DNA from: a virus
Virus record (IMG/VR): IMGVR_UViG_3300025941_001114
Span: 1-25,384 of that record
DNA length: 25,384 nt
Direction: 5' to 3' (one strand)
Positions within the stretch are counted from its first letter, which is position 1, and each line of letters opens with the position of its first letter. Positions 1,315 to 23,465 of this stretch are shown here, piece after piece. The notes beneath the pieces are model-generated. The model was not told where the DNA came from. It did no database searches and was given only the letters and a program-made list of their open reading frames with translations. The position numbers and the translations under genes were made by a program.

Positions 1315-4300
1315 CTATTCCACCTCCGCGGCGCGGTCATTGACCCACGACTGCAAGACCGAGATCCCGCTCGGGAGAATGTCCGTCTCATTCGAGGGCA
1401 GCACGTGCGTCGTGGTGTTGACCGCCAGTGACGGCCAGCCGCCGACGTCGCTCTGATGGGCAATCAACGATCCGGTACGCGCGAGGACTTCGGCCACGAT
1501 GCGCGTATCCACCGTGTCTCGGTCGGCCGGGCGGGCGCCGGCCGTCGCCAAGACCACGGCCGCCACGTCCGCCGAGGCGATCAGTTGGTAGCCGGCCACG
1601 GTGACCGGCGGCGTGCTGACGCCCGTCGTCGGATTGATGCCGTCGCCGTTGATGACGGTGAACCCGATCGGCGCACTGCCCGTGTAATCCACCGTCGTGT
1701 CGGCGATGTAGACCTGCGACCCTGACGCCAGATACCGCGACCCGTAGAGGTACGACGTCGGGGTCGTACTGGGTCCGGTCTTATAGGCATTGCCGACGTG
1801 CGTGGCGAGTAGTCCCGGCGGCTCCGCGCCGTCCGGATCTTCATAGAACGTGGCCAGCGTCTGGTAGTTGTAAATCAGGTTGTTGGCGCTGTAGGTCTGG
1901 GCGCTCCCGGAACTGTCCGGATTGCGCTCCGAGTTGTGGGCGAAGAGACACTGGATCACGGCCGCCTGCTTGGCGTTGTTGCGGAATAACATGCCGTAGG
2001 CGTAGCCCGCGCCGCCGGACGGGCATCCACCCATGCCCGGGGCGTTATAGAGCGGCTCCGAGCAGATACACCGCCAGACCGTCAGGTTCATGTCGCGGGC
2101 GGAGTTCGTGAAGACGAAGTTCTTCGACTGCGACCACGAGACCGAGAGATGGTCCAACACGAGGTTGTACGGATCGCCGGTCTGAAACGCCTCCACCCCG
2201 ACGTTGCACGTGTCCCCTCCGGGACGGATCCGGAGATGCTGGATCACGACGTCGTGGGTTTGGATCTGGATCCCGTAGTTCTTGATGGTGATCCCCGGCG
2301 AGGGCGCGGTCTGACCCGCGATGGTGGTGTACGGGTTACTGACCACCAGCTCAGTCGATGGCGTGATCGTGCCGCTCGTCTCGAAGATGATGAGCGCCGG
2401 CCCGCCGGTGTACGCGAGCGCGGTGCGGAGCGACCCGGCCCCGCTGTTCGAGAGGGTCGTCACGCGCAGCACGGTCGGAAACGTCGCGCCGCCAAAGGCG
2501 CCGCGCGAGGTCATCCCCAGCCCGGACGCGCCGGGGACGGCCACGAGTGGGGGGCGAGCGGCGACGGTCAGGACGAGTGCGGTCCCGGCGACGGCGGAGC
2601 CGAGCGCGCGGGGCGACGCGGCCAGGGGATCATCGAACGTGAACGCCAGGTCTGGATCGATCAGCCCCGGCGGGTCGAGACACGTCAGGGTCACGATCTT
2701 GGTGTCGATCGCGAAGTGTTTCTTGAGAATGATCAACGGCCGATCGATGTAGCCGAGCGCGGCTGGACCCATGATCGACGTGAACTGAATCCCCGATCCC
2801 ACGGGGTAATCCATCAGCCCCATGTCACCGGGGAACGTGACGTAGATCGGCCCGTGCCGGCGGGCGGCCAGGCGCTCCGTCAGCACAAACGCCCACTGCG
2901 CGGGATCGCGCGTGAGCAGGCCCTCGAGCACCTGGCTGTATTTGCGGATCCCCTTGTTGTGGCGAATCCCGATCGGACTCGGCACCGACACGAGGGCGTT
3001 CCGGTAGCGCGCGGCGTCCGGATCCCAATCACAGGAGCCTTGGACCACGTTCTCCATTTCGCTCTGGGGATTCGTCCGCGTGACATCCCCGAAGACCCGC
3101 GAGACGTGCTCGATGCGCGGCCACGTCGTCGGATCATCGAGGACGTTCAATCGCCACACGATGAATTGCCCCTGCTCGTTCTGTCCCAGGAGACAGCCGC
3201 CGTTGTCGTTCCAGAGCCCGACGGTGTCGCGCATGCTGCGCTGATCGCGGAAGTACGCCGAGATTTGAAAGCCCGCGCCCCCGAACGCCGCCGCTGATTG
3301 CGCCTGCGCCTCGACGAACGACGAGCCCTTGATGAGATACGTGCCGTCCGCGTAGGTGTAGAGATCCGCCACGACCTGCGGGTACGAATACGTGCCGACT
3401 TCCACGCGCGGTTGCTTGGAATTCTGGAGGACGCAGTTCTCGAGCCACCACAAATAGGCGAGGAAGTAATCGGTGATGGGCACGCCGGTGCCGTCGCCGA
3501 CCGACTCGACGCCGATGACATTCGCCGTGAGGGTGACTTCCCCGGCCAGGTGTGCATCGAGCAGCGGCCCGCGGATCCAGAGGTCCTGCACGCGGTAGCT
3601 TTCCCCATCGCTCAGGATGTCTTCGTAGGTCGTCGCTTTCACATAGCCGGCATAGCCGAAGACCATCGTGTCGATCCCGCCCCGGGCGTCGAGATCGAGT
3701 TTCGTGCGCTGGGGGAGCTTGCGGGTGATAAACCAATTCACGTCGGTGCAGTCCACCGTCGCGAGGCTGTTGTTGATCGTGACGGTGGAACCACTGACGG
3801 CGATGATCTGTCGCTCCTGCTTCCCGAGTTTGGGCGTGTAGAGCGTGATCGCCATGTCGCCGAGATCGGAGACGTCCGAGAGGTCGGGGGATCCGTCGAG
3901 CGTGATCACCGACTGGGGTTCCGCCCCGTCCGAGGTCGCGCCCGTGGACAGCGATTGCCCGTAGATCCCGCCGCCGAAGTCGGACCCGTAGACCCCGAGA
4001 ATCGAGTGCGCCGCAAAGAGGCACACGTTGAAGCGGCCCCACGGCTCTGAGATCCCCGCCACCGCGCCCGGGAGATTGTCGATCCCGACGAAGGTGAGCG
4101 GACACAACCCGCGCGCGGAGGGGAGGCTGGTTTTGGGATCAATCGCGCCTTCGTCGCTGACTTCTCCGAGGATCACCGCCATCGCCTGCGAATAGACATC
4201 GGGCGGGGCGAGGAAGTAATACGCACTCGGAATCGTCCACGTCGGGAACTGCTTCTCCGTCGCGAAGGCCGCCCCGTCGCAAAAGAGCGCATCCGTCGCG

Positions 4301-4629
4301 TGGAAGGTGGCGACGACGGGCGTGCCGTATTGCGCGTCCTGGATCAAGCCGCGGCCGAGGCAACGGGGGGTCGCGTTGGCGCGTCGGCCGGCGTCCGTGC
4401 GGGCGAAGATCGCAATCTCGTCGCGTTGGAAGTGTTGCGTGTCGGGATCGTCGAGGCGCGTGCCGATCGGTCGGCCCACGACGTCACTCAGCGAGATCTC
4501 GACGGTGCCGGCTTCCGGTTCGTGCGAGAGCGCGTATTCGACATCGCCGACGGTGAGGAGGCGGCCTTCTTTCCGCTCCGTATCGTCGAGATCGGTGATG
4601 GCGTAGCGGAGGGTTTCAGTCGTTGACAT
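1315..4629 (-). CDS. Tail hub-like protein fused to pectate-lyase-type beta-helix domain
   Basis: A 1104-residue protein. Residues 1 to about 690 are mixed alpha/beta with many aromatic residues and, by position after the tape measure and distal tail genes, should be the tail hub or central tip protein; no family motif was recognised there. From about residue 700 to 1075 the sequence matches the pattern of polysaccharide lyase family 1 proteins: LRVTTLSNSGAGSLRTAL, then IIFETSGTI, TTIAGQTAPSPGITIKN, VVIQHLRIRPG, the LDHLSVSWSQSKN helix-edge motif near 828, and the C-terminal block RDTVDTRIVAEV...SDVGGWP near 1040 to 1070. Such parallel beta helices cleave acidic polysaccharides by beta-elimination, so this is a likely capsule or exopolysaccharide depolymerase carried on the tail. 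It overlaps the 77-aa gene before it by 14 bases. The lyase assignment is strong by motif; the substrate and the hub role are inferred. Confidence 0.8.
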   Translation of the reverse strand: MSTTETLRYAITDLDDTERKEGRLLTVGDVEYALSHEPEAGTVEISLSDVVGRPIGTRLDDPDTQHFQRDEIAIFARTDAGRRANATPRCLGRGLIQDAQYGTPVVATFHATDALFCDGAAFATEKQFPTWTIPSAYYFLAPPDVYSQAMAVILGEVSDEGAIDPKTSLPSARGLCPLTFVGIDNLPGAVAGISEPWGRFNVCLFAAHSILGVYGSDFGGGIYGQSLSTGATSDGAEPQSVITLDGSPDLSDVSDLGDMAITLYTPKLGKQERQIIAVSGSTVTINNSLATVDCTDVNWFITRKLPQRTKLDLDARGGIDTMVFGYAGYVKATTYEDILSDGESYRVQDLWIRGPLLDAHLAGEVTLTANVIGVESVGDGTGVPITDYFLAYLWWLENCVLQNSKQPRVEVGTYSYPQVVADLYTYADGTYLIKGSSFVEAQAQSAAAFGGAGFQISAYFRDQRSMRDTVGLWNDNGGCLLGQNEQGQFIVWRLNVLDDPTTWPRIEHVSRVFGDVTRTNPQSEMENVVQGSCDWDPDAARYRNALVSVPSPIGIRHNKGIRKYSQVLEGLLTRDPAQWAFVLTERLAARRHGPIYVTFPGDMGLMDYPVGSGIQFTSIMGPAALGYIDRPLIILKKHFAIDTKIVTLTCLDPPGLIDPDLAFTFDDPLAASPRALGSAVAGTALVLTVAARPPLVAVPGASGLGMTSRGAFGGATFPTVLRVTTLSNSGAGSLRTALAYTGGPALIIFETSGTITPSTELVVSNPYTTIAGQTAPSPGITIKNYGIQIQTHDVVIQHLRIRPGGDTCNVGVEAFQTGDPYNLVLDHLSVSWSQSKNFVFTNSARDMNLTVWRCICSEPLYNAPGMGGCPSGGAGYAYGMLFRNNAKQAAVIQCLFAHNSERNPDSSGSAQTYSANNLIYNYQTLATFYEDPDGAEPPGLLATHVGNAYKTGPSTTPTSYLYGSRYLASGSQVYIADTTVDYTGSAPIGFTVINGDGINPTTGVSTPPVTVAGYQLIASADVAAVVLATAGARPADRDTVDTRIVAEVLARTGSLIAHQSDVGGWPSLAVNTTTHVLPSNETDILPSGISVLQSWVNDRAAEVE

Positions 4630-4849
4630 GCGTCACTTCCGCCCACACGTGCAGCGTCCGCGCGCCGGTCAGGACTTCCCCATCCTCGGCGTCATCCCCG
4701 ATCGGGACGGATCCCGACGCCCCCGTATACGTCGCCGTAAAGCCCACGCCCCCTTGATTCGAGCCCGCCGAGCTCGCCGGCGTCCGCAGCACCGTGGTTT
4801 CCGGTGCGACCTTCAGCACGGGGACCGAGAGCAGTTCATCCGTGGGCAT
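4616..4849 (-). CDS. Small tail-associated protein, copy 2 of duplicated micro-protein
   Basis: A 77-residue protein. Its last 45 residues (from GGVGF to the end) align without gaps to the end of the 62-aa protein immediately upstream, with 33 of 45 identical by eye; the shared core includes ATYTG, VPIGDD and LTGARTL followed by VWAE. Its front half, LSVPVLKVAPETTVLRTP, resembles the C-terminus of the 459-aa protein two genes upstream. It starts two bases after the previous stop and its end overlaps the hub-lyase gene by 14 bases. No known family was recognised; the compact D/G/T-rich composition suggests a small beta domain. It may be a tail-tip accessory or cap protein, which is inference from position. 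Confidence 0.65.
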   Translation of the reverse strand: MPTDELLSVPVLKVAPETTVLRTPASSAGSNQGGVGFTATYTGASGSVPIGDDAEDGEVLTGARTLHVWAEVTHVND

Positions 4850-4851
4850 GG

Positions 4852-5040
4852 TCAGTCGATCGCGTGCGTGATTTCGGCCCAGACCTGGAGCGTGCGGGCG
4901 CCCGTCAACGCCTCGCCGTCGTCCGGATCGTCCCCAATGGGCACCGTCCCCGACGGGCCGGTGTAGGTGGCGACATAGCCTTGCCCGCCTTCGTGGCCGC
5001 CCGTGCGCCCGACGTCCTCGCCCTCGCGCTTATCGGGCAT
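4852..5040 (-). CDS. Small tail-associated protein, copy 1 of duplicated micro-protein
   Basis: A 62-residue protein with a good Shine-Dalgarno (GGGAGG seven bases before the ATG), which supports independent translation although its first 11 bases overlap the end of the 459-aa gene. The first 18 residues are charged and G-rich (MPDKREGEDVGRTGGHEG), and the rest is the same 45-residue module found in the 77-aa neighbour. It lacks the LSVPVL...LRTP front half carried by that neighbour; a matching stretch is instead found at the C-terminus of the preceding 459-aa protein, which suggests an ancestral duplicate divided between two reading frames. Function unknown. Confidence 0.65.
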   Translation of the reverse strand: MPDKREGEDVGRTGGHEGGQGYVATYTGPSGTVPIGDDPDDGEALTGARTLQVWAEITHAID

Positions 5041-6409
5041 GCGGTCGCCTCCCTTGGGTGTTGATCCCCCGCTTCGTCGGCGTGCGCAGCGGCGTCGTAT
5101 ACGGCGTATAGGACAAGACCGGCACGGAGAGGCGGAGCGGGATCGGTTGATGGAGAAAGAAAAACGGACAGGATTGACTCGGGCCGAACTGCTGCGTGGT
5201 CCCCGTCGGCCCGCTCCCGTGCTCGAAGATATCGACCGTCAACGACTGCAGGACCGACCCATCGACGGTCGCGTACTGCACGAACATCGCCTGCGGGAGC
5301 GGGGTAAAGATCGAGAACCACGTCCAGAACGAGGCCGCCCCATCCGGATCGCGGGCCATGTGATTGAACGTGAAGCCGGTATAGGCCGTCCCAACGGCGT
5401 AGTCTCTGAGCGTGGCGCCGGCGGCGGAGTACTGCCGGAGAAAGTCGTCGGTGCGCGTGCTGGCCTTCTCGTAGTAGACGACCACCGACCCGTCGGCCAA
5501 GGCCATCAACTCCGCCACCGCGGAGCCCGCCACATCCGCCGCGAGGTCGGACACCGCCGAATCCGAGCCCATGTCGTGGCGCTTGACCGCCGCCGTCCCG
5601 AATTGACTCCAATACAGCGTGGCCCCGCCGGGACTGATCGCCATCGCGGTCGTGCCGACCCCGGAGAGGGTCCAGACGGTGCCGCTGACGACGCCGGCCG
5701 AGGACACCGCGCGCACCTCGGGCGGACTGGCCGCGCTCCCGACTGGCACGATGTAGAAGGTGTCGATCCCATCCGCCGCAATGGCCTGAAAGAACGTGCC
5801 GGGCTGAATCAGCGACGGCCGATCCGCGATCAACAGGAACTGGCTACTGAAGATCTGGATCGTGTCGACGATGGCGCTGCTGTTGCGGGCCTCGACGCAC
5901 ATCGTGCCGTCCGGCAGGACGTCCCCATGTTCGCCGGCGGGAAACTCGACGACGCGAATCACCTCGCCATCGCTTTGGCGCATCACGACCGCCGGGAACC
6001 CATGGCCGTCGTCGGGAATCACGATGCTCCCGATGCCCGCGGGACTCTTGGACGGCGCCACCAGCGTGAACGTGGCCGGGGTGCCGAGGGTCGGGGCTCC
6101 CGTGGACTCGAATTTCCAGTAGTACGTATTCCCGAGGAGGACCGGCACCTGCATCGGCGCGGTCGAGTCGATCCGCATCGTCCCGAACTGCGAGGGCGAG
6201 GCCAGCGCGATCCCTTGGTAGGCCGTGAGTTGCGCCTCGTCTGACGGGAGGTTCGGCAGCACCTTGGCGCCGACGAAACCTGGGCTGATCACCGCCGGCG
6301 TGTAGCTGTACCAGGCGCCGGTGCCGATGGCGTCGTACAGATCGATCGTGACCGACGCGGGGAGCGTCAGCGCGATCGCCGTGCCGGCCGACGTGTTCGG
6401 CAGGCTCAC
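5030..6409 (-). CDS. Tail-tip protein with propeller-like repeats, hypothetical
   Basis: A 459-residue protein that begins in an ATGA overlap with the gene before it. The first 120 residues look like a beta sandwich (VTIDLYD, MQVPVLLGNTYYWKFES). From about 120 to 420 short repeated blocks of about 40 residues appear, such as FFQAIAADGIDTFYIV, TTAMAISPGGATLYWSQ, AELMALADGSVVVYYEK and FNHMARDPDGAASFWTW, the D-G-x-hydrophobic pattern of beta-propeller blades. The C-terminal 35 residues contain LSVPVLSYTPYTTPLRTP, shared with the 77-aa protein downstream. By order it belongs to the tail tip between the distal tail candidate and the hub. The propeller reading is from the repeat pattern only; no exact family was recognised. 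Confidence 0.7.
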   Translation of the reverse strand: MSLPNTSAGTAIALTLPASVTIDLYDAIGTGAWYSYTPAVISPGFVGAKVLPNLPSDEAQLTAYQGIALASPSQFGTMRIDSTAPMQVPVLLGNTYYWKFESTGAPTLGTPATFTLVAPSKSPAGIGSIVIPDDGHGFPAVVMRQSDGEVIRVVEFPAGEHGDVLPDGTMCVEARNSSAIVDTIQIFSSQFLLIADRPSLIQPGTFFQAIAADGIDTFYIVPVGSAASPPEVRAVSSAGVVSGTVWTLSGVGTTAMAISPGGATLYWSQFGTAAVKRHDMGSDSAVSDLAADVAGSAVAELMALADGSVVVYYEKASTRTDDFLRQYSAAGATLRDYAVGTAYTGFTFNHMARDPDGAASFWTWFSIFTPLPQAMFVQYATVDGSVLQSLTVDIFEHGSGPTGTTQQFGPSQSCPFFFLHQPIPLRLSVPVLSYTPYTTPLRTPTKRGINTQGRRPHAR

Positions 6410-7209
6410 AGGAGCGGAATCCCTTTCGAGAGTTCCGTGAACGTCATGTTGATCGGGCGGTAGCCTTGGCAGACGTTCTGCACGTCCAGATCGCCGAGCG
6501 TCCCGAACAGCCCGTCACTCACATTCGGATCGGGCCAGAACAACGAGCCCAACGCCCCGCCATGCGAGGAGCGGTGCCAGGCGGTGAGGGCGGCCTTGCC
6601 CGCGTCGTTTGCGCGCATCAGGAACTCGATCGAGCGTTCCCGCGTCAGGGCGTCGAGGATGAACCGGGACAGGTAGACGTTCTTCTTCTCCTCCTGCCCG
6701 TGATGTTCTTTCTCGTGGTAGTCCCAGGCGAAGTTGGACCCGGACATGTTGTTGAGGAACGTCGTCTTCGGGCCGTAGAGCGCAATCGCGGCGCCGAGGG
6801 TGACGTTCACCGAGTTCCCGCTGATCACGAGGTTCCAGGTCGTCGAGGTTTTCTGCGCGTTCGTGAAACCCGAGAGATCCACGATCACCGTGAGCGGAAT
6901 ACCATCGAGCGGTACGGCCGGAATCGTGATCGCCTGGCTGAGCCCGTCCGCGTTGGTGATGGTGGCCACCGAGGCGCCCGCGTCGAGATTGGAGACGGTG
7001 AGCACGAAGATCTCGCCGTTGATCGCGGCACTCACGCCGCTCCAGGTCAGCGTTACGGTCTTCACCGCCCACTTCACGCGCCAGTCCGGACGGAGATAGG
7101 GGAAGGTCGCCAGCGAGTACGTCGCCATGGGCGCAACGGTGGCGGTGGGCGTGATGGCCGCGAACAGGTTGCTCGCGGCACCCTGATAAACCGCGGGGAT
7201 CTTGGCCAT
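6406..7209 (-). CDS. Putative distal tail or tail-tip protein
   Basis: A 267-residue protein starting at the ATG that overlaps the tape measure stop as TGATG; longer upstream readings overlap the tape measure and are discarded. The first 130 residues are beta-rich (VKTVTLTWSGVSAAINGEIFVLTVSN), the middle has a highly charged H/E/K stretch (DYHEKEHHGQEEKKNVYLSR), and the end, LDVQNVCQGYRPINMTFTEL, reads like another small beta domain. In siphoviruses the gene right after the tape measure usually codes for the distal tail (Dit-like) protein that attaches the tip to the tube. That position is the main argument; I could not match a Dit motif. Confidence 0.65.
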   Translation of the reverse strand: MAKIPAVYQGAASNLFAAITPTATVAPMATYSLATFPYLRPDWRVKWAVKTVTLTWSGVSAAINGEIFVLTVSNLDAGASVATITNADGLSQAITIPAVPLDGIPLTVIVDLSGFTNAQKTSTTWNLVISGNSVNVTLGAAIALYGPKTTFLNNMSGSNFAWDYHEKEHHGQEEKKNVYLSRFILDALTRERSIEFLMRANDAGKAALTAWHRSSHGGALGSLFWPDPNVSDGLFGTLGDLDVQNVCQGYRPINMTFTELSKGIPLL

Positions 7210-10200
7210 CAGGACACCCCCAGTTCCGCCCGCAGCTTGGTATGCGCCCCGCCCTTGTTGTACCGCACCGCTTTCGTCACGGCGCCCGCGACCGAGGCCG
7301 CGTTGCGGTTTAAGAGTTGCTCGAAGCTGGCCGCATCGACGGCGTGGATCGTGATCTGGTAGGTGTCGCCGCCAGCAGCGGTCGAGAGTCCGTCGTTGCC
7401 GTCGCCCTTGAGGAAGCCGCTCGACGGCCCGCGCGAAAAGCGTCGCCCTTCCCCGCTGAAGGCGTACTCCTCGTTTCCCTGCGTGGTGAACGTCATCGGA
7501 CGGGAGGCGAAGCCGAAGCCCCCCCCCGCCATCGGCCACGTCGGCGGCGCGTGGGGATCCGTGTCGCCGGATCGCCAGCCGCCGGGATCCGCGCCCGGTC
7601 CTGGGGCGTTCGTGCCCGTGGCGCCCGTCGTCCCGGGCGGGGTATACGGTTTTCCGCCTAGGGCCGCCGCCAACCGGTCTTGGCTGAGGATCAACTGCGC
7701 GATGGAGTCGCGCGTCTTCTCCCCGTCGGTCTTCTCCATGTCGTGCCAGATGCCGAGCTCGTCGCTCTGGCGGATCATCTCTTTCGTGTTCTCGTCGAGA
7801 TCGAGCCCCTGCTTTTTCGCCCAGTCCTGCAGTTCGTGGAGGGTCTGCTGGAACGGCAGCAGGGCGTTAATCGTGGTGCCGCCGGCCTGCTCGGTCGCCG
7901 ATTGCGTCTGCGTGTAGAGCGAGCCGAGGGTGCGCTGCTGCGCCGCGAAGGCCTCGGGCGTTTCAATCCCCTTCCCGAGGTTCATGCCCGCGGTGATGAT
8001 CTGTTGCAGGCCGCTCACCGCTTGGCCGGTCCCCCCGGCCCCATTCAGGATGGTGTTTTCGATCAGGAGGCCTTTGAGCGCGGGATCATCCACGACGAGC
8101 CCGAGGTTCTTGTAGGCCTTCGCGATGAGATCGAGCTGCGGCGAAATGGCCTTCAGCGCTTGCGCGAAGGTCGAGCCACTCGCGATGGCGGCATTGAACG
8201 TCGTGAGCGCGATGGTGCCGAGATCCGCCAGGGCCTGTTTGTTGCGCTCGGCTTCGCGATGCTGGACAGTCAGGGCCTCCGTCAACGTGTCCTGCGCCTT
8301 CGTGAGGGCGTCGGTGAGCGCGAGATCCTTGGCGCCGCTCGTCGCGGACGTGTTACTCGCGGCTTCTCTCGCTTTGTCGAGCGCTTTTTGCGCGGCTTCG
8401 ACGGCCTTGTAGTGCGCGATGGTGTCGGTCTGCGCCTGTTTCGATTGCGCGCCCGCCAGGGTCTGCTCGGCCTTCTTGATCGCGGCGGCCTGCTTGTCGG
8501 TCGGACCGCCGGCGCCGGAGGCGGCCTGCTTCGCGTCGCTATCGGCGAGTTTCTCCTTCGCGTCGTCCACAGCCTTCTGCGCGTCCGTGACGGCCTTCCC
8601 GACGGCTTCCGCATTGGCGATCATCGGCTGTGTTAACAGTCCGGCGAGCCCGGAGGCCATGTCGGCCGCCTGCCCCGTCTTCCAGGCGGCGATCGCCTTC
8701 GAGTGCGTCCCGAACCGCTCGTCGAGGTCGATGATCTCGCGGAGCTTGTCGCTGATCTGGCCGTAGGCGTTGGTCCCCTGCTTCGCGAAGGCGTCCCAGT
8801 TGTCATCGATGATCTTCGCGCCTTGCACGGCGGTGAGGCGATTGAGTTCGATCAGCGAGAAGACGTCGTGCAGCTTCCCCATCATCTGGGCGATGTTCTT
8901 GTCGGTCAGGCCGCCGGCTTGCTGAATGATGTTCGCGAGGTTGTTGTATTCGGCGGCCCAGCGGTCCCCGTGAAACAGCTCCTTCGCGTCTTTCGCGATT
9001 TGGTCGCTGAGCGCCTTGTCGATCTTGACGCCGAAATCCCGACCCACTTCGTCGGCGGCCTTCGCCCACTCGGGCTTACCGCGGATGAGTCCAACAAAGA
9101 ATCCGGCGGCGGCGCCGATCGCTATCCCCCACGGACCGAACGCGGCCCCCGCCTGCGCCCCCGCGAGGGCGCCCGCGCCAGCATTGCCCATGGCGGACGC
9201 GTGCGAACTCGTCGCGTCCCACACGTTCATCGCGCCTTGCGCCACGGCGGCCGCCGCCTGCGCCCCAGCGGACACGCGTTGCGCCCCGGTGGCGTTCGAG
9301 TTAAAGAGGACGGAGCCGAGACCGAAGCTGCCCCCGAGCGATTGACCGTTGCGACCGATTTGTTGCGTGACGCGACTCGCCTGTTCGAGGATTTGGATCA
9401 CCTGCCCGACGGCCGAGAAGATCCCACCCAGCGAGCCGCCCGCCGCTCGGCCAATCTCCTCAAAGGCTCGCGACACGTCGTTGAGCGCGTGTTCCCAGTC
9501 CTTCGTGTGCTGCTTCAAGCGCACGATGGCTTCTTCGTCCTTTGGGTGGAAGAGGAACTCACCCTTGAGGGGACCGAGCTTGTCCATTGAAGCCGCGCCC
9601 CCGCCCGACTCGATGTTGTGGATCTTCGTCAACTCGTCCGTGATGCCTTTGAGCTGCTCGTGGATGTTGACGAGGTCGCCGAGTCCCTTGATGGGACCGA
9701 GGAGCGGCTGGCCGGATTCGATCGCGCGGATCTTCCCGAGTGACGTCCCGAGCTCCTTCGTGGTTTCGACGAACAACTTGACCTGAATGTCGGCCGCCCC
9801 GATCAGCACGGCCGTTTCCGTGATGCCTAAGCCGAGACTCCGGTAGTGCGTCGCCATGACGACTTGGATCTCGTCCAACGGGATGGCCGCGTTGCGCGCG
9901 TCGAGTTGGGCTTGCGCCAGCACCTTCAGCGCCTTCGTGTGCTCGCTCTCGGCTTTGGCGGTTTCCTTGTGCGCCGACACGGTCTGGCGTTCGTAGACGC
10001 CGATCACGTCGGCTGCAATGCCTGTATCCGCGGCGATCTGTTTCGCGGTCATGCCGGCGGCTTTGTCCGCGTCGATCCGGGCCCGCTGACCGGCGGTGAG
10101 CGTCTTGACTGACTCTAGGAGCTTGCTGTTCGCGGAGACTTGGTTCGTGGTGCCCACCACGACTTCGGCGGCCACCTTCTTGAAGTCAGCGCCCATCTTG

Positions 10201-12047
10201 ATCGTCATGCCGGTCACGAGGTCTCCGGTGTTCGCCTTGACCACGTCCGGGCTGCTGGTTGACAGAAGCGGCTTCTTATTCCCGTCGAGGAGCCCTTCGA
10301 GCGGCTTCCCGGCGTTCGAGATGTGCTCCATCGCGCTCAGGTTCTTGTGCAGTTCGTAGACGGCGAGTGCGATCCCGCCGATGACGATCGCGGCCCCCAG
10401 CACGATGGGGTTGGCCAGGAAGCCGACGAGTCCCGCGATCCCGCCGGCGGCCGCAGGCCCGCTGAAGAGCGCCAGCGCCGTGCCGATTTCCCCGAGCGCG
10501 CCGACGAACGAGCCGATGATAAAGAGCGCCGGCCCAATGACCGCCACGAATCCCACCAGCCCGACAACCAGGAGCCGCACCGGCTCGGGCAAGGTCGCGA
10601 ACCATTTCACCGCACTGGACGCCCACTCGATGAGCGGGTCGGCGGCCTTCATGAAGTCGCGGAGGATGGGCATCAGCGCGTCGCCGAGCTTCATACGGAC
10701 GTCGTCGAGCCGATTCGCGAAGATCTTCATTTGATTTTCGGTGGTCGCGTACCGGGTCTGCACCGCCTCGAGGAACTTCGAGTGATCGGCGTAGGTGGCG
10801 GTGCCGAGGGCCATCGAGTCCCGCATCAGGTTGGCGGCCCCGGCGGACGAGAGCATCGAGTTCAGGAGTCGGGTTTCCTTGAACCCGAGTTCGTCCATCG
10901 CGAGGAAGAGGCTCTTGCCTTGGTCCTTGACATGCGACAAGCCGGTAATGAAGGCGGAAAAGGCGAGCCCTGGGTCCTTCGTCCACGCCTGCTGGAAGTC
11001 CTTCGCCGACATCCCCGACATCGCGGCGAAGTCCTTCAGATGGCCGCCCCCGGTCGCCACATCCTTCGACATCTTGATGATGACCCGCGAGATCGCGGTG
11101 CCGCCGGCTTCCGCCTCGATCCCGACGGAGGAGAGGGCGTTGGCAATGCCGAGGACCTGTGGCGCCGTGAAGCCGGCCGCGGCGCCGGCGCCCGCGATCC
11201 GCTGCGCCATGTCCAGCATTTCTTTTTCGGTGGACTGGCCGAAGTTGCCGAGTGAATAGACCGCCGATCCCAAGTGCTCGAACTCACTCTGCGGCACCTT
11301 CATGACGACTGCGAGCTTGGCAAAGGCTGTGGCGGCTTCGTCGGCTGTGAGATGCGTGGCGGTACTGATGTCGACGATGGTCTTCGTGAACGCGAGGAGG
11401 TGGTCTTGACCGACTCCCATCTGGCCGGCCGTTTCGCCAATCTTCGCGAGGCCGGCGGCGGAGACCGGCGTGACCTTCGCCATCTCCCGAAAGCCCTCAT
11501 TGAGTTTCTGGAGTTCGACCGGTGTGGCGGAGACGGTTTTCTGGACCCCCGAGAAGGCGGTTTCGAAATCCATCGACGCCTTGAGGGCGGTGTAGCCGAG
11601 CGCCACCAGCGGCGCGGTGATCCCGATCGAGAGGGTGGTCCCGACCGACTGCAGGGAGCCGCCGATCTTGGTCATGGACGCGCCGATGCGCTCCGCCTTG
11701 TCGGCCATGGTCTCAGCCGCGGCCGACGCCGCTTTCAACTCGACGGAGAGCTGGCGCATCGCCTCGGGCGCGCGTTGCCCCAAGGCGTCGTACTTCTCGA
11801 TCGCTTTGTCGATCTTGATCGTCTGTTTGTCGAGTTCCGCGGCCGTGAGCTTGGTGGCCCCGCCGAGTTGATCAATCGCCCCGACGGCGACGTTCGCCGC
11901 GCGAAACAACCCGCTGCCGCCCAGGCTCTCCGCCGTGCGGTCGACCGATCGCTTCATCGAATCGATCGTAGAAATGCCCGCGAGCAGCGACGTTTTGAGG
12001 GCGTCGGTGTTATCAACCCAGGCGATGCGGTTGGTGATCGTGGCCAT
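7209..12047 (-). CDS. Tail tape measure protein
   Basis: A 1612-residue protein, the longest gene in the window, which sets tail length and is ejected ahead of the DNA. Residues about 100 to 420 match the TP901-type phage tail tape measure core (GASMTKIGGSLQSVGTTLSI, then MDFETAFSGVQKTV and GFTAPQVLGIANALSSVGIE). Hydrophobic segments lie near 495 to 575 and a glycine/alanine-rich one near 946 to 987. A heptad-like coiled coil with many K, A, Q and D is near 1135 to 1235. The gene lies right after the chaperone and gp10-like genes, the usual place. At about 0.15 nm per residue (the known ruler relation) a tail near 240 nm would be expected. It follows the previous stop by three bases with no good Shine-Dalgarno, so it may depend on translational coupling. 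Confidence 0.93.
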   Translation of the reverse strand: MATITNRIAWVDNTDALKTSLLAGISTIDSMKRSVDRTAESLGGSGLFRAANVAVGAIDQLGGATKLTAAELDKQTIKIDKAIEKYDALGQRAPEAMRQLSVELKAASAAAETMADKAERIGASMTKIGGSLQSVGTTLSIGITAPLVALGYTALKASMDFETAFSGVQKTVSATPVELQKLNEGFREMAKVTPVSAAGLAKIGETAGQMGVGQDHLLAFTKTIVDISTATHLTADEAATAFAKLAVVMKVPQSEFEHLGSAVYSLGNFGQSTEKEMLDMAQRIAGAGAAAGFTAPQVLGIANALSSVGIEAEAGGTAISRVIIKMSKDVATGGGHLKDFAAMSGMSAKDFQQAWTKDPGLAFSAFITGLSHVKDQGKSLFLAMDELGFKETRLLNSMLSSAGAANLMRDSMALGTATYADHSKFLEAVQTRYATTENQMKIFANRLDDVRMKLGDALMPILRDFMKAADPLIEWASSAVKWFATLPEPVRLLVVGLVGFVAVIGPALFIIGSFVGALGEIGTALALFSGPAAAGGIAGLVGFLANPIVLGAAIVIGGIALAVYELHKNLSAMEHISNAGKPLEGLLDGNKKPLLSTSSPDVVKANTGDLVTGMTIKMGADFKKVAAEVVVGTTNQVSANSKLLESVKTLTAGQRARIDADKAAGMTAKQIAADTGIAADVIGVYERQTVSAHKETAKAESEHTKALKVLAQAQLDARNAAIPLDEIQVVMATHYRSLGLGITETAVLIGAADIQVKLFVETTKELGTSLGKIRAIESGQPLLGPIKGLGDLVNIHEQLKGITDELTKIHNIESGGGAASMDKLGPLKGEFLFHPKDEEAIVRLKQHTKDWEHALNDVSRAFEEIGRAAGGSLGGIFSAVGQVIQILEQASRVTQQIGRNGQSLGGSFGLGSVLFNSNATGAQRVSAGAQAAAAVAQGAMNVWDATSSHASAMGNAGAGALAGAQAGAAFGPWGIAIGAAAGFFVGLIRGKPEWAKAADEVGRDFGVKIDKALSDQIAKDAKELFHGDRWAAEYNNLANIIQQAGGLTDKNIAQMMGKLHDVFSLIELNRLTAVQGAKIIDDNWDAFAKQGTNAYGQISDKLREIIDLDERFGTHSKAIAAWKTGQAADMASGLAGLLTQPMIANAEAVGKAVTDAQKAVDDAKEKLADSDAKQAASGAGGPTDKQAAAIKKAEQTLAGAQSKQAQTDTIAHYKAVEAAQKALDKAREAASNTSATSGAKDLALTDALTKAQDTLTEALTVQHREAERNKQALADLGTIALTTFNAAIASGSTFAQALKAISPQLDLIAKAYKNLGLVVDDPALKGLLIENTILNGAGGTGQAVSGLQQIITAGMNLGKGIETPEAFAAQQRTLGSLYTQTQSATEQAGGTTINALLPFQQTLHELQDWAKKQGLDLDENTKEMIRQSDELGIWHDMEKTDGEKTRDSIAQLILSQDRLAAALGGKPYTPPGTTGATGTNAPGPGADPGGWRSGDTDPHAPPTWPMAGGGFGFASRPMTFTTQGNEEYAFSGEGRRFSRGPSSGFLKGDGNDGLSTAAGGDTYQITIHAVDAASFEQLLNRNAASVAGAVTKAVRYNKGGAHTKLRAELGVS

Positions 12048-12551: not shown

Positions 12552-13090
12552 CTACCGTTCGCTCTCGCGCTCTTCTTCCTTGACCTTGAAGTACTGCAAC
12601 CACTCGGTCAGGACGCGCGAACTGATCCGTTCGAGCAGCCCGTCCACATCGATCTCGTGAAACTCGTGCGCGAGCTCTAAGACGGCTCGGCGGAAGCTGC
12701 CCCGCTCGCGGAGTCGTTTCCCAGCTTGTCGGCTTCCTCCTCCGTCGTCCCGGAGACCCGATTGATGACCGCCATGATTTTGTTCAGGGGCCCGACCGGC
12801 ATCTCACCGAGGATCAGCGCGTCGTCATCCGTGAGGATCCGCACCTTGTCCTCGTCTTCGATGCAGCGCACGGCGAGCTTGGCCCGAAAGTTCGAGAGGT
12901 CGGTGTCCCCCTTGTTGCGGCCCTTCTTGATGCGGAGCGATTCCTCGAACTCGTCGCGCTCGCGGCCCGACGAGGATCGGATCCAGACATCCGTCAACCC
13001 CAACTCCGGCAGATCCACCTTCTCGCGCGGAAAGTTCGCCGTGGCCTTCGCCACCCCGGTCAGAAAGTCTTGTCGTGAGAGCTTGCCCAT
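12552..13090 (-). CDS. Tail assembly chaperone, -1 frameshift fusion product (G-T type)
   Basis: The long form of the chaperone. Ribosomes that slip back one base at the heptamer 12716 to 12722 (G_GGA_AAC) leave the short frame after codon 125 and read 54 more residues, ending at TAG 12552 to 12554, for 179 aa in all. The added part has no own start codon and includes the text ISSRVLTEWLQYF, which matches the conserved Ser-x-x-x-Leu-x-Glu-Trp pattern of the second domain of siphovirus tail chaperones, ending in a charged tail (KVKEEERESER). In lambda and HK97 the fusion binds the tape measure and the short form coats it while the tube is built. The slippery frame, conserved downstream domain and downstream stem together make this a strong call. 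Confidence 0.85.
12669..12722 (-). promoter_or_regulatory. Programmed -1 ribosomal frameshift signal
   Basis: Heptamer GGGAAAC (12722 to 12716) stands in the X_XXY_YYZ phase relative to the ATG at 13090. Five bases later CGCGAGC (12710 to 12704) is perfectly complementary to GCTCGCG (12675 to 12669), so a 7-bp stem can form just past the heptamer. The zero-frame stop codon lies in the loop. Confidence 0.85.
12677..13090 (-). CDS. Tail assembly chaperone, short form (G type)
   Basis: A 137-residue protein from the ATG at 13090, with GGAGG ten bases upstream; an open frame continues to 13543 but would overlap the tail tube gene and cross the terminator-like hairpin. The protein has the usual chaperone layout: a DLPELGLTDVWIRSSSGRER motif where a beta strand meets the R-x-x-x-F/E region, a K/R-rich helix (EESLRIKKGRNKGDT), AKLAVRCIEDEDKVRILTDD, and a flexible Ala/Ser/Glu-rich end. 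It coats the tape measure during tail assembly and is not usually kept in the virion. Codons 124 and 125 are the slippery Gly-Asn pair that allows the longer fusion. Confidence 0.85.
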   Translation of the reverse strand: MGKLSRQDFLTGVAKATANFPREKVDLPELGLTDVWIRSSSGRERDEFEESLRIKKGRNKGDTDLSNFRAKLAVRCIEDEDKVRILTDDDALILGEMPVGPLNKIMAVINRVSGTTEEEADKLGNDSASGAASAEPS

Positions 13091-13107
13091 ACGTGTGTGA
13101 CCTCCAT

Positions 13108-13157
13108 AAAAAAAGCCCCTGGCACTCCAGCGACACACGTCGCCGAGCGTCAGGGGC
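13108..13157 (-). terminator. Hairpin plus U7 directly before chaperone start
   Basis: On the minus strand GCCCCTG (13157 to 13151) pairs with CAGGGGC (13121 to 13115), with a further inner GCGAC/GTCGC stem, and is followed at once by seven T (13114 to 13108). This is a standard rho-independent terminator in the direction of the operon, 43 bases after the tail tube stop and 17 bases before the chaperone ATG. It would reduce chaperone mRNA relative to tube mRNA. Confidence 0.8.
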
Positions 13158-13200
13158 CAGAGCAAGGTGGCGGGGATTCTCCCCCTCACCCGTGAGTGTG

Positions 13201-13635
13201 TTACGCCACCGCCACCGCGATATTGCCGGCGACGCCGAACACGGCATCGGCCATGTGGCGCGCCCCGTGCTCTCCCTTGAGCAACGGCATCGATTTCACG
13301 AAGCAGCTGATCGTGAATTGGGGATTCGTCGCGGACGTCGCCGCGGAGCTCGCCTTCGCCACGACGTTGAAATACGTCTGCGGCACCGACCAGGCGCCGT
13401 AGAGGGTCGCGTAGACCTTGGCGGCCGCGAAGTCGTGGTAGAAGGTGACCTTGATGTCGGGGACCTGGAGGAGCAGCGCCATGTCGTACTGCTGCGTGTC
13501 CCCCATCGCGTCGCCGCGCCCCGCGTTGGTGTGCGCTTCCCACTCGATTTTCTCGACGTGGTCGCTCAAGTTGACGCTGTTGACCGTGAGGGTCACGTCA
13601 TAGAGCATGTGTTTGCCGGTGATGACTCCCGCCAT
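13201..13635 (-). CDS. Major tail tube protein candidate
   Basis: A 144-residue protein with a strong ribosome binding site (AAGGAG eight bases before the ATG at 13635). The sequence is all-beta in character: HMLYDVTLTVNSVNLSDHVE, then VEKIEWEAHTNAGRGDAMGD, ALLLQVPDIKVTFYHDFAAA and NPQFTISCFVKSMPLLK. Strand pairs flanking a central helix (AAAKVYATLYGAW) and small Ser/Thr/Ala-rich loops are what tail tube proteins show. The gene sits right before the tail chaperone and tape measure genes and is followed by a strong terminator-like hairpin, which is expected for the most abundant tail protein. I do not see a diagnostic family motif, so the assignment rests on order, size and expression signals. 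Confidence 0.78.
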   Translation of the reverse strand: MAGVITGKHMLYDVTLTVNSVNLSDHVEKIEWEAHTNAGRGDAMGDTQQYDMALLLQVPDIKVTFYHDFAAAKVYATLYGAWSVPQTYFNVVAKASSAATSATNPQFTISCFVKSMPLLKGEHGARHMADAVFGVAGNIAVAVA

Positions 13636-18439: not shown

Positions 18440-19870
18440 TTACGTGAGGGTCACGACGCACGACAGCGTCGACCCGCCCGACTTCGGCGTCAGCGCGGCG
18501 TTCCAGTTCAGCTGCCCGTCCGCGCGATACGTGAAGCGCCACACCTGTTCGTCGGTCAAGAACGCCACGTGGAGGGAGACGGCCATGTCGACGCCGCCCT
18601 TGTCGATGACGGTGTACTCGCCGGGGTTGACCAGGATGATGTCGCCCACGGTGCCGAGCGCCGCGCCGTACTCGGTCGTGAGAATCGGGCGCCCGTAGAG
18701 CGTCGCGGGCGAATAGCCCTGCGTGCCGGTGGGGCCGACCGAGATGCCGGCCGGGCGGTAGATGGGTGCCAACACGCCGGCGGTGCCGATAGCGATCGAC
18801 ATCTGCTCGAGCTCCTGCTCGACGCTCTGATCGACCATCCAGACGGACGTCGGTCGCAGGGGCGCCCACATGCGCTTCCACATGTTGGAGGCGTCTTCGT
18901 AGAGCACACGGCTCGCGGTGTTGCGCGTGACGGTGATGGCGGCGCCCGAGTTCAGGAAGCCGGCGGGCTTGTTGGACCCGTCGCCGTTGACGATGGCATC
19001 TTCGAGCCGGAACACGAGTTCCTTCGGCAGGATGCGACTCACGAAGGCCGAGAAGGCCGCCGCATCGATGATGAGCTCGTCGGTGCCGTAGACGAACGCC
19101 ATCAGTTTCTTGAGCTTCAATTCCATGGCGCGAAACTTCGGCCGCCCCGCACTCACGGCCGTGCCCTGCCCGACCCAGGTCGAGGCGACGCCGCCGTAGC
19201 GCGATCCGTCCGCCCGGCTCGTTTCGTCGATAGCCGGCAAGACGATGCCGTTGGAGTTGGCGCCGATCGGTTGGCGGGTGACGAGCGCCGCGATCGCGCC
19301 CGTGTCGTAGACGCGCTCGAGAATCGAATTGGACCGCTCGGGGGCAATCAAAAAGCCGCCATCCGAGGGCACGTCCGAATTGGCGCCGGTCGGGCCGCCG
19401 AGCATCTTGACCAGCTTGAAGTCCGTGGCGTCGGCCTCGTGGACCACGATCCGGCGCACGGCGTGCAGCGCCATCCCGAAGAACGAGGGGGATTTCAGGA
19501 GCTTGTCTTCGGCGCTCTCGCCGACCTGGACGCTGCCCTGGAGGCCGGCTTTGGCGACCGCCGCGGTGGCCACGTCGGCATCGGGATCGGCCACGCTCTT
19601 GACGGTCGCGGACTTCTCGGCCGCGTTGGCGGCTTCGGCGGCCTCGAGCAACTCGGCGACGTCGTCGAGTTGGGCTTTGAGCCCCTCGATCTGCGGCGCC
19701 AGCGCGGTGAACTTGGTGCGCTCCTCGTCGGTCAAGGCGCGCTTCTCGGCCACGGCCGCGTTGCCGATGTCGGCGCGTTCCTTGGAGAGTTTGGCGATCT
19801 CGCCCTTGACGTCGGCGGCGCGCTGACGGAGCGCTTTGAGATTGAAGGTGGCGGGGGCGGTGGCTGCCAT
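18440..19870 (-). CDS. Major capsid protein (HK97 fold)
   Basis: A 476-residue protein; the ATG at 19870 is chosen over one at 19903 because GGGAG stands nine bases ahead and the upstream bases form the leader hairpin. Residues 1 to about 110 are a coiled coil (LRQRAADVKGEIAKLSKERA, LAPQIEGLKAQLDDVAELLE), the delta/scaffold domain removed by the prohead protease. The mature part contains SFFGMALHAV, the PSDGGFLIAPERSNSILERV motif, VLPAIDETSRADGSRYGG, ELKLKKLMAFVYGTDELIID, the RLEDAIVNGDGSNKPAGFLN segment and YSPATLYGRPILTTEYGAAL, all in the order of HK97-type major capsid proteins. The protease gene lies upstream, separated by an opposite-strand gene. No lysine/asparagine crosslink can be judged from sequence alone. 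Confidence 0.95.
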   Translation of the reverse strand: MAATAPATFNLKALRQRAADVKGEIAKLSKERADIGNAAVAEKRALTDEERTKFTALAPQIEGLKAQLDDVAELLEAAEAANAAEKSATVKSVADPDADVATAAVAKAGLQGSVQVGESAEDKLLKSPSFFGMALHAVRRIVVHEADATDFKLVKMLGGPTGANSDVPSDGGFLIAPERSNSILERVYDTGAIAALVTRQPIGANSNGIVLPAIDETSRADGSRYGGVASTWVGQGTAVSAGRPKFRAMELKLKKLMAFVYGTDELIIDAAAFSAFVSRILPKELVFRLEDAIVNGDGSNKPAGFLNSGAAITVTRNTASRVLYEDASNMWKRMWAPLRPTSVWMVDQSVEQELEQMSIAIGTAGVLAPIYRPAGISVGPTGTQGYSPATLYGRPILTTEYGAALGTVGDIILVNPGEYTVIDKGGVDMAVSLHVAFLTDEQVWRFTYRADGQLNWNAALTPKSGGSTLSCVVTLT

Positions 19871-19877
19871 GTTGTGC

Positions 19878-19932
19878 GGCTCCCAAAAACGAAAAAAGCG
19901 CACGGCGTGAAATGGCCCCGCATTTCGGAGCC
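19878..19932 (-). promoter_or_regulatory. Shine-Dalgarno-masking pairing in capsid mRNA leader
   Basis: On the minus strand GGCTCC (19932 to 19927) is complementary to GGAGCC (19883 to 19878), which contains the capsid Shine-Dalgarno core GGAG. Adjacent to the first arm, GAAATG and CATTTC (19926 to 19909) form a 6-bp inner hairpin. The arms could hide the ribosome site when paired. A competing fold is the outer stem of the terminator-like element at the same place. Confidence 0.45.
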
Positions 19933-20585: not shown

Positions 20586-21701
20586 TTACTCGCCGATGAC
20601 GAGCGCGATCGCAATCGCTTCTTGGTCAGCCGCCAGCGCGGAGGCCTCGGCCGCGGCTTTCGCCGCCGATTCTTTGTAGCAGGCGCATTCCGGCGAGCAG
20701 GTCGGACACAAGGGGGGACATTCGGTCTCCTCGCACGGGCACGCTGGCTCGCACTCGGGGCAGCCGGTGATGTCGTCGTCGGTCTTCGTTTTCTTCGCGG
20801 CCACGATTGCCCCCACGACCGGCGCGACGGGTGTGTCCGCTCGCGCCAGGGGACTCGCCGGCCGCGCCTTCGCCAAGCGGCCGATCACCTGCCCGAACGT
20901 CCCCGCCTTATCCGCCAGTCCGAGTTTGACCGCGGTCTTGCCGCGGAAGACTTTGCCCTGGCCAAACGTCTTGGCGACGACGGATTGATCCACGCCGCGG
21001 CCGCGGGCGACCGCCGCATCGAACCACCCGCCGATCTCGTCGACACTGGCCTGCAGCTCCGCGCGCGCGGTGTCGCTCAGCGGTGCGTACGGATGCCCAT
21101 CGATCTTGTTCTCGCCGTAGGCGATGAGCGTGATCGTGATCCCGGCCTTCTTGAGCATCTTCGAGATGTCGTCATGCTCACAATAGACGCCGATCGCCCC
21201 GATCTGCGCGCTTTGCGTCGCGTAGATCGTGTCCACCTGGCTCGCCAGCCAGTACGCGCACGAGCAGATCATCGTGTCGGCGACGGCGATGATCGGGCGG
21301 GACTCCTTCCCGCGCGCCGTGTAAATCTCGTCGGCAAACTCGGGCATCATGTCGATCACGCCGCCAGGTGAATCGATGCGAAAGGCGATCGTCTTCACCG
21401 CCGGATCGCCCAGCGCCATTCGGAACTGCTGCTGCAGATCCTGGATGCTCGCCCCGCCGAAGTAGTACGACAGCCAGGAGCTTTTGTACGTAATGGGGCC
21501 ACAGACATCGATGAGCGCGAGGTCCCCGACCATCTGGGGCGCGATCGTGCGTTGGCTGTACGCGGTGACCGCGGCCTGCACCGCGTCTGGACCCGCGAGG
21601 GCCGCGGCTTTCACCTTGGCGGTCGCCAACCACGCCCGAAAGGCTTTCGGCTCGACCCACAACTGCCCGCCGCCGAACATCTGCTCAAATTCAGTTCGCA
21701 T
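20586..21701 (-). CDS. Prohead protease, S49/SppA-type, with cysteine-rich tail
   Basis: A 371-residue protein with GGAG eight bases before the ATG; its start overlaps the 47-aa zinc-ribbon gene by 11 bases. The peptidase S49 features are IAFRIDSPGGVIDMM (S-P-G-G at 111 to 114), the nucleophile segment CSCAYWLASQVD with likely Ser147, and ENKIDGHPY with Lys199 as likely general base, the Ser/Lys dyad of SppA-type enzymes. A third family block is GKVFRGKTAVKLGLADKAG. It should cut the capsid delta domain and itself during maturation. Residues 313 to 341 hold nine cysteines with prolines and acidic residues (CPECEPACPCEETECPP, then CPTCSPECAC), followed by an Ala-rich helix. Such a tail is not part of the core S49 family and may bind metal. 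Confidence 0.88.
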   Translation of the reverse strand: MRTEFEQMFGGGQLWVEPKAFRAWLATAKVKAAALAGPDAVQAAVTAYSQRTIAPQMVGDLALIDVCGPITYKSSWLSYYFGGASIQDLQQQFRMALGDPAVKTIAFRIDSPGGVIDMMPEFADEIYTARGKESRPIIAVADTMICSCAYWLASQVDTIYATQSAQIGAIGVYCEHDDISKMLKKAGITITLIAYGENKIDGHPYAPLSDTARAELQASVDEIGGWFDAAVARGRGVDQSVVAKTFGQGKVFRGKTAVKLGLADKAGTFGQVIGRLAKARPASPLARADTPVAPVVGAIVAAKKTKTDDDITGCPECEPACPCEETECPPLCPTCSPECACYKESAAKAAAEASALAADQEAIAIALVIGE

Positions 21702-21834
21702 CGCGTTTTCTCCAGCCTGTTTCTTCGATCCAACACCGTGCGCACAGGGGGCCGTCCACCGTCCAGATGCGTCGCGATCCGCAATGCGGGCAATCGCGCC
21801 GCAAGAACACCCACAACCTCGTGAGCCAGCTCAC
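21691..21834 (-). CDS. 47-aa zinc-ribbon microprotein
   Basis: A short gene with a GTG start that overlaps the portal stop as GTGA, and GAGG about seven bases upstream. It reads SWLTRLWVFLRRDCPHCGSR, then WTVDGPLCARCWIEETGWRK. The CxxC - 13 residues - CxxC arrangement with G/R around it is a zinc ribbon of minimal size. The long frame (to 23136) that contains it in the same phase overlaps the portal and is a shadow; only this end is supported by the overlaps. Small zinc proteins occur among phage head genes, but the role is unknown. Confidence 0.65.
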   Translation of the reverse strand: MSWLTRLWVFLRRDCPHCGSRRIWTVDGPLCARCWIEETGWRKRDAN

Positions 21835-23465
21835 GCCGCGGCCTCGTCCATCAACGACAACGCCGCGAGCTCGTCCGCCTCGTAGGCTTCCCACGCCGGG
21901 CCCGCGTCCCCATCGATCACCGTCAACCCTTTGAGCTCGAACGCCGCGCCATGTTGCGCCGCATAGCCGCGGGCGATTGTCAACGACAGGCGCATCGTCT
22001 GCGCGACAAACACCGCGTGGTCCCCGTAGAAGTCGCGGAGGCCGGCTTTCCACCCGTCGACGTCGCTGGCATGCTTCCGTCCGAGCTTCTCCACGGCTAC
22101 GCGTTCCCGTCGGAGGCAGCGCACCGCGTTGTCGTGCACGGCCAGCATGGCTTTGAGGTTCGCGCGGGCGTTCTGCGGTGGCGAGGGCTGATTCGCCGGC
22201 GTCCCGCCCGCGTTTCCGGGCTTGTTGTCGCTTTCCGAGAGCTTGTCGAGCTCCGCGTCTGGATTCAGGTCGAGCAAGAGCGTCCGGACCTCGCTGGGTC
22301 GCATCGAGCGGTTGCGGACCACCTTTTCGATGAATTCCCCGGTCTGCGCCGGATCCCCGCGGAGGAGCTCGCGCAGATCGAACTTCACGAAGTAGGTGTC
22401 CTTCGCGAGAATCAGATCCCGCTGGATCGCCTGCTCGAACGTGCGCGCCAGGGGACGGATACAGCCCACGACGTGATCGATCGCGTCCTGGTAGGCGGAG
22501 GCGTAGCCGCCCGATGTGGCGGACCGGACCATGAGCTTGCGCGGGGAGATGCGCAGCCACCGCGCGACCTCGAACACGGTCCACTCGCGCGCGAGCATCA
22601 TCTGCGCCTTGTCGGGTTCGACCGCGAGATTGGCGATCTTGATGTCGTCCGGGACGAGCATGAGGCCGAAGCTGTTCTCGACGCCGCCGGCGAAGCGGGA
22701 GATGCTCTTGTGCAGCGCGTCCTCGTCTTCGTCGTCCTTGTCGCCGGCGTAGGTGGCGATCATCGCCGCCGTCATGCCCGACTTGAAGAACTTCCCCGCC
22801 GCGCGTTCCGCCGCCAGCGAGATCCCAACGCCACTGACCGCAAAGGACATCATCGATTGGCTGGCCAGGGGGTCGGTCCCAATGTCCCGGACGACGTGCA
22901 TTTCCTGCCAGCTGATATAGCGATCGGGTCGGCCGTTGCCTTCGATCAATTTGTAGCGGATCCGCCCGCTCGGGAGGCGTTCGGGGAACACCCGATCGGG
23001 ATGCCGCGGCAACAGCTGGGAGAGAAAGCCTTTCGGCCCGTCGACGATCTCCGCGTAGGCCTGCCCGCGCATGAGGAATTGCGCCACCTGGCCCGCGAAG
23101 TACTCCGTCGCCGTCTGATAGTCGTTCGGCGCCCACTGGAGCATGTAGGCGAGATCACCGATGCCGCCGGCGGCCCACTCGGCGGCACTGCCCCGAATGC
23201 GATCCTTCCCCCCGTCCGATCGCGCCTTGAACGTCTGCGCGGGGAGCGTGGCGAGGTCGTACGCGATCGTGTTGACGCCGCAGTACATCGCTGACAGCGT
23301 CTTCGCGAGCTCCGGCGTCACTTCCATGCCGCTCGCCGCGAGCGCGGAGAGCCAGAGATCGGGCACGGGGTCCCCGCCGAAGAAGGCGTTGGTGTACTCC
23401 TGGGCGCTGCCGGCGCGCACCCGTCGCGGCGCCGCGAGACTTGAGATGCGCGTGTGAAATCCCAT
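21831..23465 (-). CDS. Portal protein (HK97/lambda-type)
   Basis: A 544-residue protein whose ATG directly follows the preceding stop and has AGGAAGAG five bases upstream. The text LSAMYCGVNTIAYDLATLPA, YFAGQVAQFLMRGQAYAEIV, the R-H-P-D-R-V-x-P loop, a Y-I-S-W-Q-E-M-H-V-x-R segment and the central helix with SLAAERAAGKFFKSGMTAA are family features of phage portals (HK97 type). The later parts FEVARWLRISPRKLMVRSAT, GYASAYQDAIDHVVGCIRPL and DLRELLRGDPAQTGEFIEKV are also in the expected order. The dodecamer is the DNA channel and binds the terminase. Residues from about 410 extend beyond the core, with a P/N/Q-rich linker then a helical end; this is longer than in many homologues. Confidence 0.93.
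   Translation of the reverse strand: MGFHTRISSLAAPRRVRAGSAQEYTNAFFGGDPVPDLWLSALAASGMEVTPELAKTLSAMYCGVNTIAYDLATLPAQTFKARSDGGKDRIRGSAAEWAAGGIGDLAYMLQWAPNDYQTATEYFAGQVAQFLMRGQAYAEIVDGPKGFLSQLLPRHPDRVFPERLPSGRIRYKLIEGNGRPDRYISWQEMHVVRDIGTDPLASQSMMSFAVSGVGISLAAERAAGKFFKSGMTAAMIATYAGDKDDEDEDALHKSISRFAGGVENSFGLMLVPDDIKIANLAVEPDKAQMMLAREWTVFEVARWLRISPRKLMVRSATSGGYASAYQDAIDHVVGCIRPLARTFEQAIQRDLILAKDTYFVKFDLRELLRGDPAQTGEFIEKVVRNRSMRPSEVRTLLLDLNPDAELDKLSESDNKPGNAGGTPANQPSPPQNARANLKAMLAVHDNAVRCLRRERVAVEKLGRKHASDVDGWKAGLRDFYGDHAVFVAQTMRLSLTIARGYAAQHGAAFELKGLTVIDGDAGPAWEAYEADELAALSLMDEAAA

Follow-up and report, generated by a model that had tools for sequence, protein, structure and literature searches.

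In the 25,384 bases of the IMG/VR record IMGVR_UViG_3300025941_001114, the whole of which is the window analysed here, a single open reading frame on the minus strand (1315-4629, with an ATG start) encodes a protein of 1104 amino acids, P0001, that combines an N-terminal domain of the tail module with a C-terminal lyase of the PL1 type. Sequence comparisons establish the fusion, the predicted fold of the lyase, the conservation of the gene order, and the existence of a relative in the same lineage that lacks the lyase. The reading that we favour, and that we consider probable though far from assured, is that P0001 is a tail-tip component of a siphophage, either the hub or a protein attached to it, whose lyase, similar to those of PL1 subfamily 2, would open a path to the cell.

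The minus strand of the record holds a siphophage structural module recognized by profile matches: a large terminase cut by the end of the record (24005-25384), a portal (21831-23465), an S49-type protease (20586-21701), a major head protein (18440-19903), connector genes, a tail chaperone (12677-13543), and the tape measure protein that anchors the tail module (7209-12047; phrog_13339 at 9.4e-106, TIGR01760 at 1.1e-46), past which lie the tail-tip genes. Long open reading frames on the plus strand (471, 553 and 846 amino acids, between 14783 and 20170) cover minus-strand head genes that have profile matches, and look like antisense artefacts of GC-rich DNA.

All tail-tip genes are also on the minus strand. 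The first encodes a 266-amino-acid protein (6406-7206) that we call Dit-like from its position only, profile searches having given zero family matches. It is followed by a repeat-rich frame of 459 amino acids (5030-6409), for which no family was matched in Pfam or PHROGs, and by two small frames of 62 (4852-5040) and 77 (4616-4849) amino acids, tandem paralogues by eye, the second of which shares 14 nucleotides with the beginning of P0001. Directly downstream of the lyase domain come a 175-amino-acid gene (787-1314) and a frame listed with 231 amino acids (150-845), whose start is uncertain.

Relatives of P0001 without a lyase were found in two ways. A scan with residues 440-690 identified L109, L110 and L111, in which a protein of 1343-1344 amino acids is 41-42% identical to residues 8-665; L109 and L110 are counted as one virus, since their listings are identical. 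L126, whose counterpart of P0001 is 34% identical, came from scanning with residues 120-240 as an alignment of three rows. Residues 8-665 (2635-4608, minus strand) can be delimited as a domain at the tail-tip position, a putative hub, with 34-42% identity to the lyase-less proteins of L126, L109 and L111. The gene order of L126 is a long open frame where a tape measure would lie (assigned by its place rather than by a family scan), a Dit-like gene, the counterpart of P0001, the 175-amino-acid gene, which here lies downstream of the lyase-less protein, and a further gene. The window sequence of tape measure, Dit-like gene, P0003 and P0001 is similar in L126 and L111. Identities between the window and L126 are 48% for the Dit-like protein (34% with that of L111), 56% for the 175-amino-acid gene, and 41% over 90 amino acids for the further gene, which corresponds to the 231-amino-acid frame. 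The window differs from L126 by the separate 459-amino-acid frame and the two small frames between the Dit-like gene and P0001. Since the same tail-tip gene order occurs with and without the lyase, the lyase is either a C-terminal addition in the window, or was lost in L126 and L109/L111. The pairing of enzyme-bearing and enzyme-free forms of this tail-tip-position protein, within a shared gene order, offers a clean natural comparison for the gain of a depolymerase.

The region upstream of the hub-like domain varies as well: the window has the 459-amino-acid frame, L109 a fused part of about 650 amino acids (6722-8680) that is also present in L111, and L126 another, different fused part (6156-7600). 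Because this upstream part differs among the three, both ends of the hub-like protein appear to have been swapped. By eye, the 77- and 62-amino-acid frames resemble a linker directly N-terminal to the hub-like domain in L109/L111 and L126; there the linker belongs to the same polypeptide, whereas in the window stop codons separate it.

The initial annotation of this DNA described a tail hub-like protein fused to a lyase. The in-frame fusion to a different protein of the tail module stands, but the identity of that protein as a hub could not be upheld by homology. Residues 1-690 are a sequence orphan except in four IMG/VR records, representing three distinct viruses; the N-terminal part had no match in Pfam, PHROGs, the PDB or phage sequences, and gave chance-level matches only, by sequence and by profile, against 385 alphaproteobacterial genomes. 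A hub profile, which held only 3-4 sequences, showed no homology in hhalign to J of lambda, J of Caulobacter phage W2, or two proteins from MinS1 and two from CMP1, and the AF2 model of the domain, built from three sequences, has a pLDDT of 27, too low to be of use. The N-terminal part is probably a tail hub or a protein attached to it, judged by its gene position after the tape measure and Dit-like genes only. It is possible, if distinctly less probable, that it is instead a tail fibre or another accessory tail protein encoded after the Dit-like gene. In the searches run, residues 1-690 showed neither sequence nor structural homology to any known hub, which speaks against the hub placement; the contig of 25 kb ends soon after P0001, so that the true hub could be out of view and another candidate may sit beyond the end; and the swapping of the N-terminal neighbour region among relatives is a habit of host-contact proteins. 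Against this, no protein encoded past the Dit-like gene is larger than the P0001-type one in any of three virus lineages, and its position and length are conserved.

The lyase domain, residues 693-1104 (1318-2553, minus strand), is predicted to be a parallel beta-helix similar to the enzymes of PL1 subfamily 2. Residues 693-1083 match the NCBIfam model NF041900 (PelZ) with an E-value of 1.4e-56 over 391 amino acids, covering positions 23-411 of the 422 in the profile; with 192 bits, and an equivalog cut-off of 840 bits for the model, the domain is a homologue rather than an equivalog of PelZ. PHROG 27797, pectate lyase, matches P0001 at 1.3e-27, and PDB entry 9buj matches the lyase at 8.2e-13 with the single sequence and 1.4e-78 with a profile; such a resemblance lies well beyond chance. 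A Pfam-A search of P0001 gave zero matches, and PF00544 was not found anywhere in the window record; an annotation relying on Pfam alone would therefore overlook this lyase, and similar tail lyases may be under-annotated.

Placing hub and lyase rows in one alignment put the hub rows out of register (19% versus 41%), and the two parts were therefore folded separately. The AF2 model of the lyase, built on 34 sequences, has a pLDDT of 90.3 and a pTM of 0.92. Its closest structure in VIA-align, by a wide margin, is PfPL1 (9buj; Z 42.5, rmsd 2.7 Å, 373 residues), followed by VexL (Z 33.8), Jun a 1, a Thermotoga pectate lyase and pectin lyases, which rank at Z 29-34, with PelC at 26.5. PfPL1 was the first enzyme of PL1 subfamily 2 to be solved, a subfamily that also includes Dickeya PelZ (PMC11229556). 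Enzymes of this type serve bacteria in attacking the pectin of plants. The claim of a whole PL1-type lyase at the C-terminus is thus confirmed by profile match, by a confident model of the domain and by the first rank of PfPL1; the motifs quoted in its favour, SNSGAGSLRTAL, TIAGQTAP, LDHLSVSW, RDTVDTRIVAEV and DVGGWP, are all present, in that order.

Two other arrangements were considered. P0001 does not fit the layout of a trimeric tailspike depolymerase, with a short anchor, a central beta-helix and a C-terminal trimerisation or chaperone part, since the lyase starts only after about 690 residues, and the chain stops about 20 residues past the profile match. A secreted auxiliary enzyme was judged unlikely, because the lyase is C-terminal in a tail-module protein of 1104 amino acids and inspection by eye showed no signal peptide.

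The active site was compared between the viral clade, formed by the lyases of the window and of two other viral records, L001 and L018, and 30 other homologues, mostly bacterial, three being from viral contigs. The predicted catalytic base, R902 (1924-1926, minus strand), is invariant across every row of the lyase alignment, and the viral clade also retains D826 and H827. The columns D835, E836, H865, K867 and H876, conserved in 73-97% of the 30 homologues, hold S, K, G, G and Y or F in the viral clade (S, K, G, G and Y in the window), except for an E at the K867 column in L018. Profile alignment places R902 on R220 of PfPL1 and R236 of pectin lyase A, E813 (2191-2193, minus strand) on Asp142 and Asp154 of the same enzymes, and K836 (2122-2124, minus strand), where 28 of the 30 have Glu, on the neutraliser R176 of pectin lyase A. 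The lyase domain of P0001 has the full-length fold and the sequence family of PL1 subfamily 2 (PfPL1, Dickeya PelZ, BT_4116 of Bacteroides thetaiotaomicron), with the catalytic Arg220 of PfPL1 retained as R902, but it is fused to a tail-module protein and the D/E/H/K positions conserved in bacteria are changed. A search for catalytic residues therefore recovers the arginine and finds several conserved acidic and histidine positions altered; the pectate-lyase type proposed initially is right as a fold, but pectate activity should not be assumed.

In PfPL1, R220 is the base, and metal-free catalysis has been proposed for it and for VexL (PMC11229556); in pectin lyase, Arg176 is the neutraliser and Arg236 the base (PMC10992409). 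On the profile alignment, K836 and R902 of P0001 reproduce this pair, a basic residue at the position of a calcium-binding acid together with a base arginine. We infer, with less confidence, that the lyase may act as a beta-eliminase that needs no metal, K836 taking the part of the neutraliser.

The changed residues could also mean that catalysis was lost and that the beta-helix groove was kept for binding a receptor or a glycan, an outcome to which we give perhaps one chance in four. Five strongly conserved polar positions are replaced, in the same or nearly the same way across the viral clade, and an antireceptor domain is found at the same end of the hub of phage LSH1 (PMC13243795). However, R902, D826 and H827 are retained, K836 falls on the neutraliser of pectin lyase, and a lyase could lose its metal ligands and stay active, since catalysis in PL1 subfamily 2 and VexL has been proposed to be metal-free (PMC11229556).

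The lyases nearest to that of P0001 are found in L001, L002 and L003, uncultured podoviruses of P22-like kind, with 70-77% identity, and L001 has the same active-site changes. L001 carries a P22-like set of portal, coat, scaffold and head-closure genes, and L003 shares with it the head-closure gene and a small gene adjoining the lyase; PHROGs 156, 283 and 578, whose annotation says no more than portal, major head and head closure, are of P22 type. Unlike P0001, the carrier of the lyase in L001 has TIG and InlB-B-repeat-type domains, and no similarity to the N-terminal part of P0001 was detected in it. The lyase of L018 is 58% identical, and is preceded by segments that, by eye, are B-repeat-like. 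A single enzyme module is thus common to long-tailed and short-tailed phages with unrelated carriers.

A genome scan with the single P0001 lyase sequence found no relatives; the alignment-based scan found 571 bacterial lyase relatives, the best at 38-39% identity. In the maximum likelihood tree, a single clade (100/100) unites the lyases of the window, L001 and L018; its long stem is nested within the bacterial lyases, in agreement with the resemblance to bacterial enzymes noted from the sequence alone. The window joins L001 before L018 (98/87), which makes transfer between carriers the simplest account, the tree giving no direction. Among bacterial branches, the one closest to the viral clade is the lyase of the planctomycete L034 (98/93), whose lineage is a possible source of the viral one; this lyase (5001-6296) and that of L035 (3523-4761), a Chitinivibrionales MAG, also lack the D-E pair. 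The lyase looks movable, since close relatives do without it and a very similar one occurs in short-tailed viruses that are unrelated. That the assembly joined a podovirus lyase to siphophage sequence is very improbable: the nearest lyase is podoviral and the same fusion did not turn up in any other record, but the reading frame runs through the junction without a break, the two halves have similar GC and GC3 (0.648/0.846 and 0.663/0.877), the lyase is 70% identical to a podoviral one and not near-identical, and the gene after it matches siphophage L126 rather than a podovirus, so that a chimera would need two exact joins.

Assuming that P0001 is indeed a tail-tip component, its N-terminal domain would dock at the end of the tail, beneath the ring of the Dit-like protein, and the lyase would consequently hang at the tip. 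During adsorption, it may cleave a uronic-acid-containing polysaccharide of capsule, slime or envelope, by a beta-elimination with R902 as base that would open a route to the cell surface; less confidently, catalysis would be metal-independent, with K836 in the charge-neutralising role of Arg176 of pectin lyase A. The lyase module probably travels among phages of different morphology. A bolder version, which we put forward tentatively, is that the siphophage tail hub permanently includes a metal-independent lyase with a rebuilt active site, K836/R902 standing in for the D-E/H set of the bacterial enzymes, and that this module is exchanged between siphophages and P22-like podoviruses; envelope polysaccharide would then be cut where the DNA channel opens. 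From the viral active site follows a claim that can be put to the test, that of a PL1 enzyme with a lysine replacing a conserved acid, directed at bacterial polysaccharide.

Tail-borne pectate-lyase-like domains are common in phages (PMC5380687). Cellulophaga phages (phi39:1 gp26, phi10:1, phiST) have, as P0001 does, a PL1-like domain in a large tail-region protein, and MS/MS underlies the annotation of phi39:1 gp26 as a virion protein; tail lyases of this kind are thus already known. The Cellulophaga lyases are about 25-29% identical to that of P0001, their proteins gave no match to its N-terminal part, and a recent common origin is unsupported, since they fall in a different part of the tree. 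In phage LSH1, the antireceptor domain is fused to the C-terminus of the hub (PMC13243795); LSH1 gp25 and lambda gpJ resemble P0001 in lying after the distal tail gene with a C-terminal host-contact domain (PMC13243795), but the fused domain of P0001 is a lyase, and sequence homology of the N-terminal part to gpJ was not detectable. To call a hub-borne depolymerase unusual, as was done initially, is therefore fair, but the LSH1 fusion and the Cellulophaga virion lyases are precedents. What is new is the carrier, the comparison that a single phage lineage offers between forms with and without the lyase, the fact that podoviruses share the module, and the way its active site has been rebuilt.

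Two other viral sequences carry related lyases. An uncultured podovirus (MW202742.1, 1977-3353) encodes a stand-alone "pectate lyase" of 458 amino acids, of the same wide family, beside head genes. The lyase of a contig classified as viral (IMGVR_UViG_2558860218_000008, 9001-10191) groups tightly with that of Dickeya undicola, and is probably bacterial DNA from the edge of a prophage, or else a contaminant.
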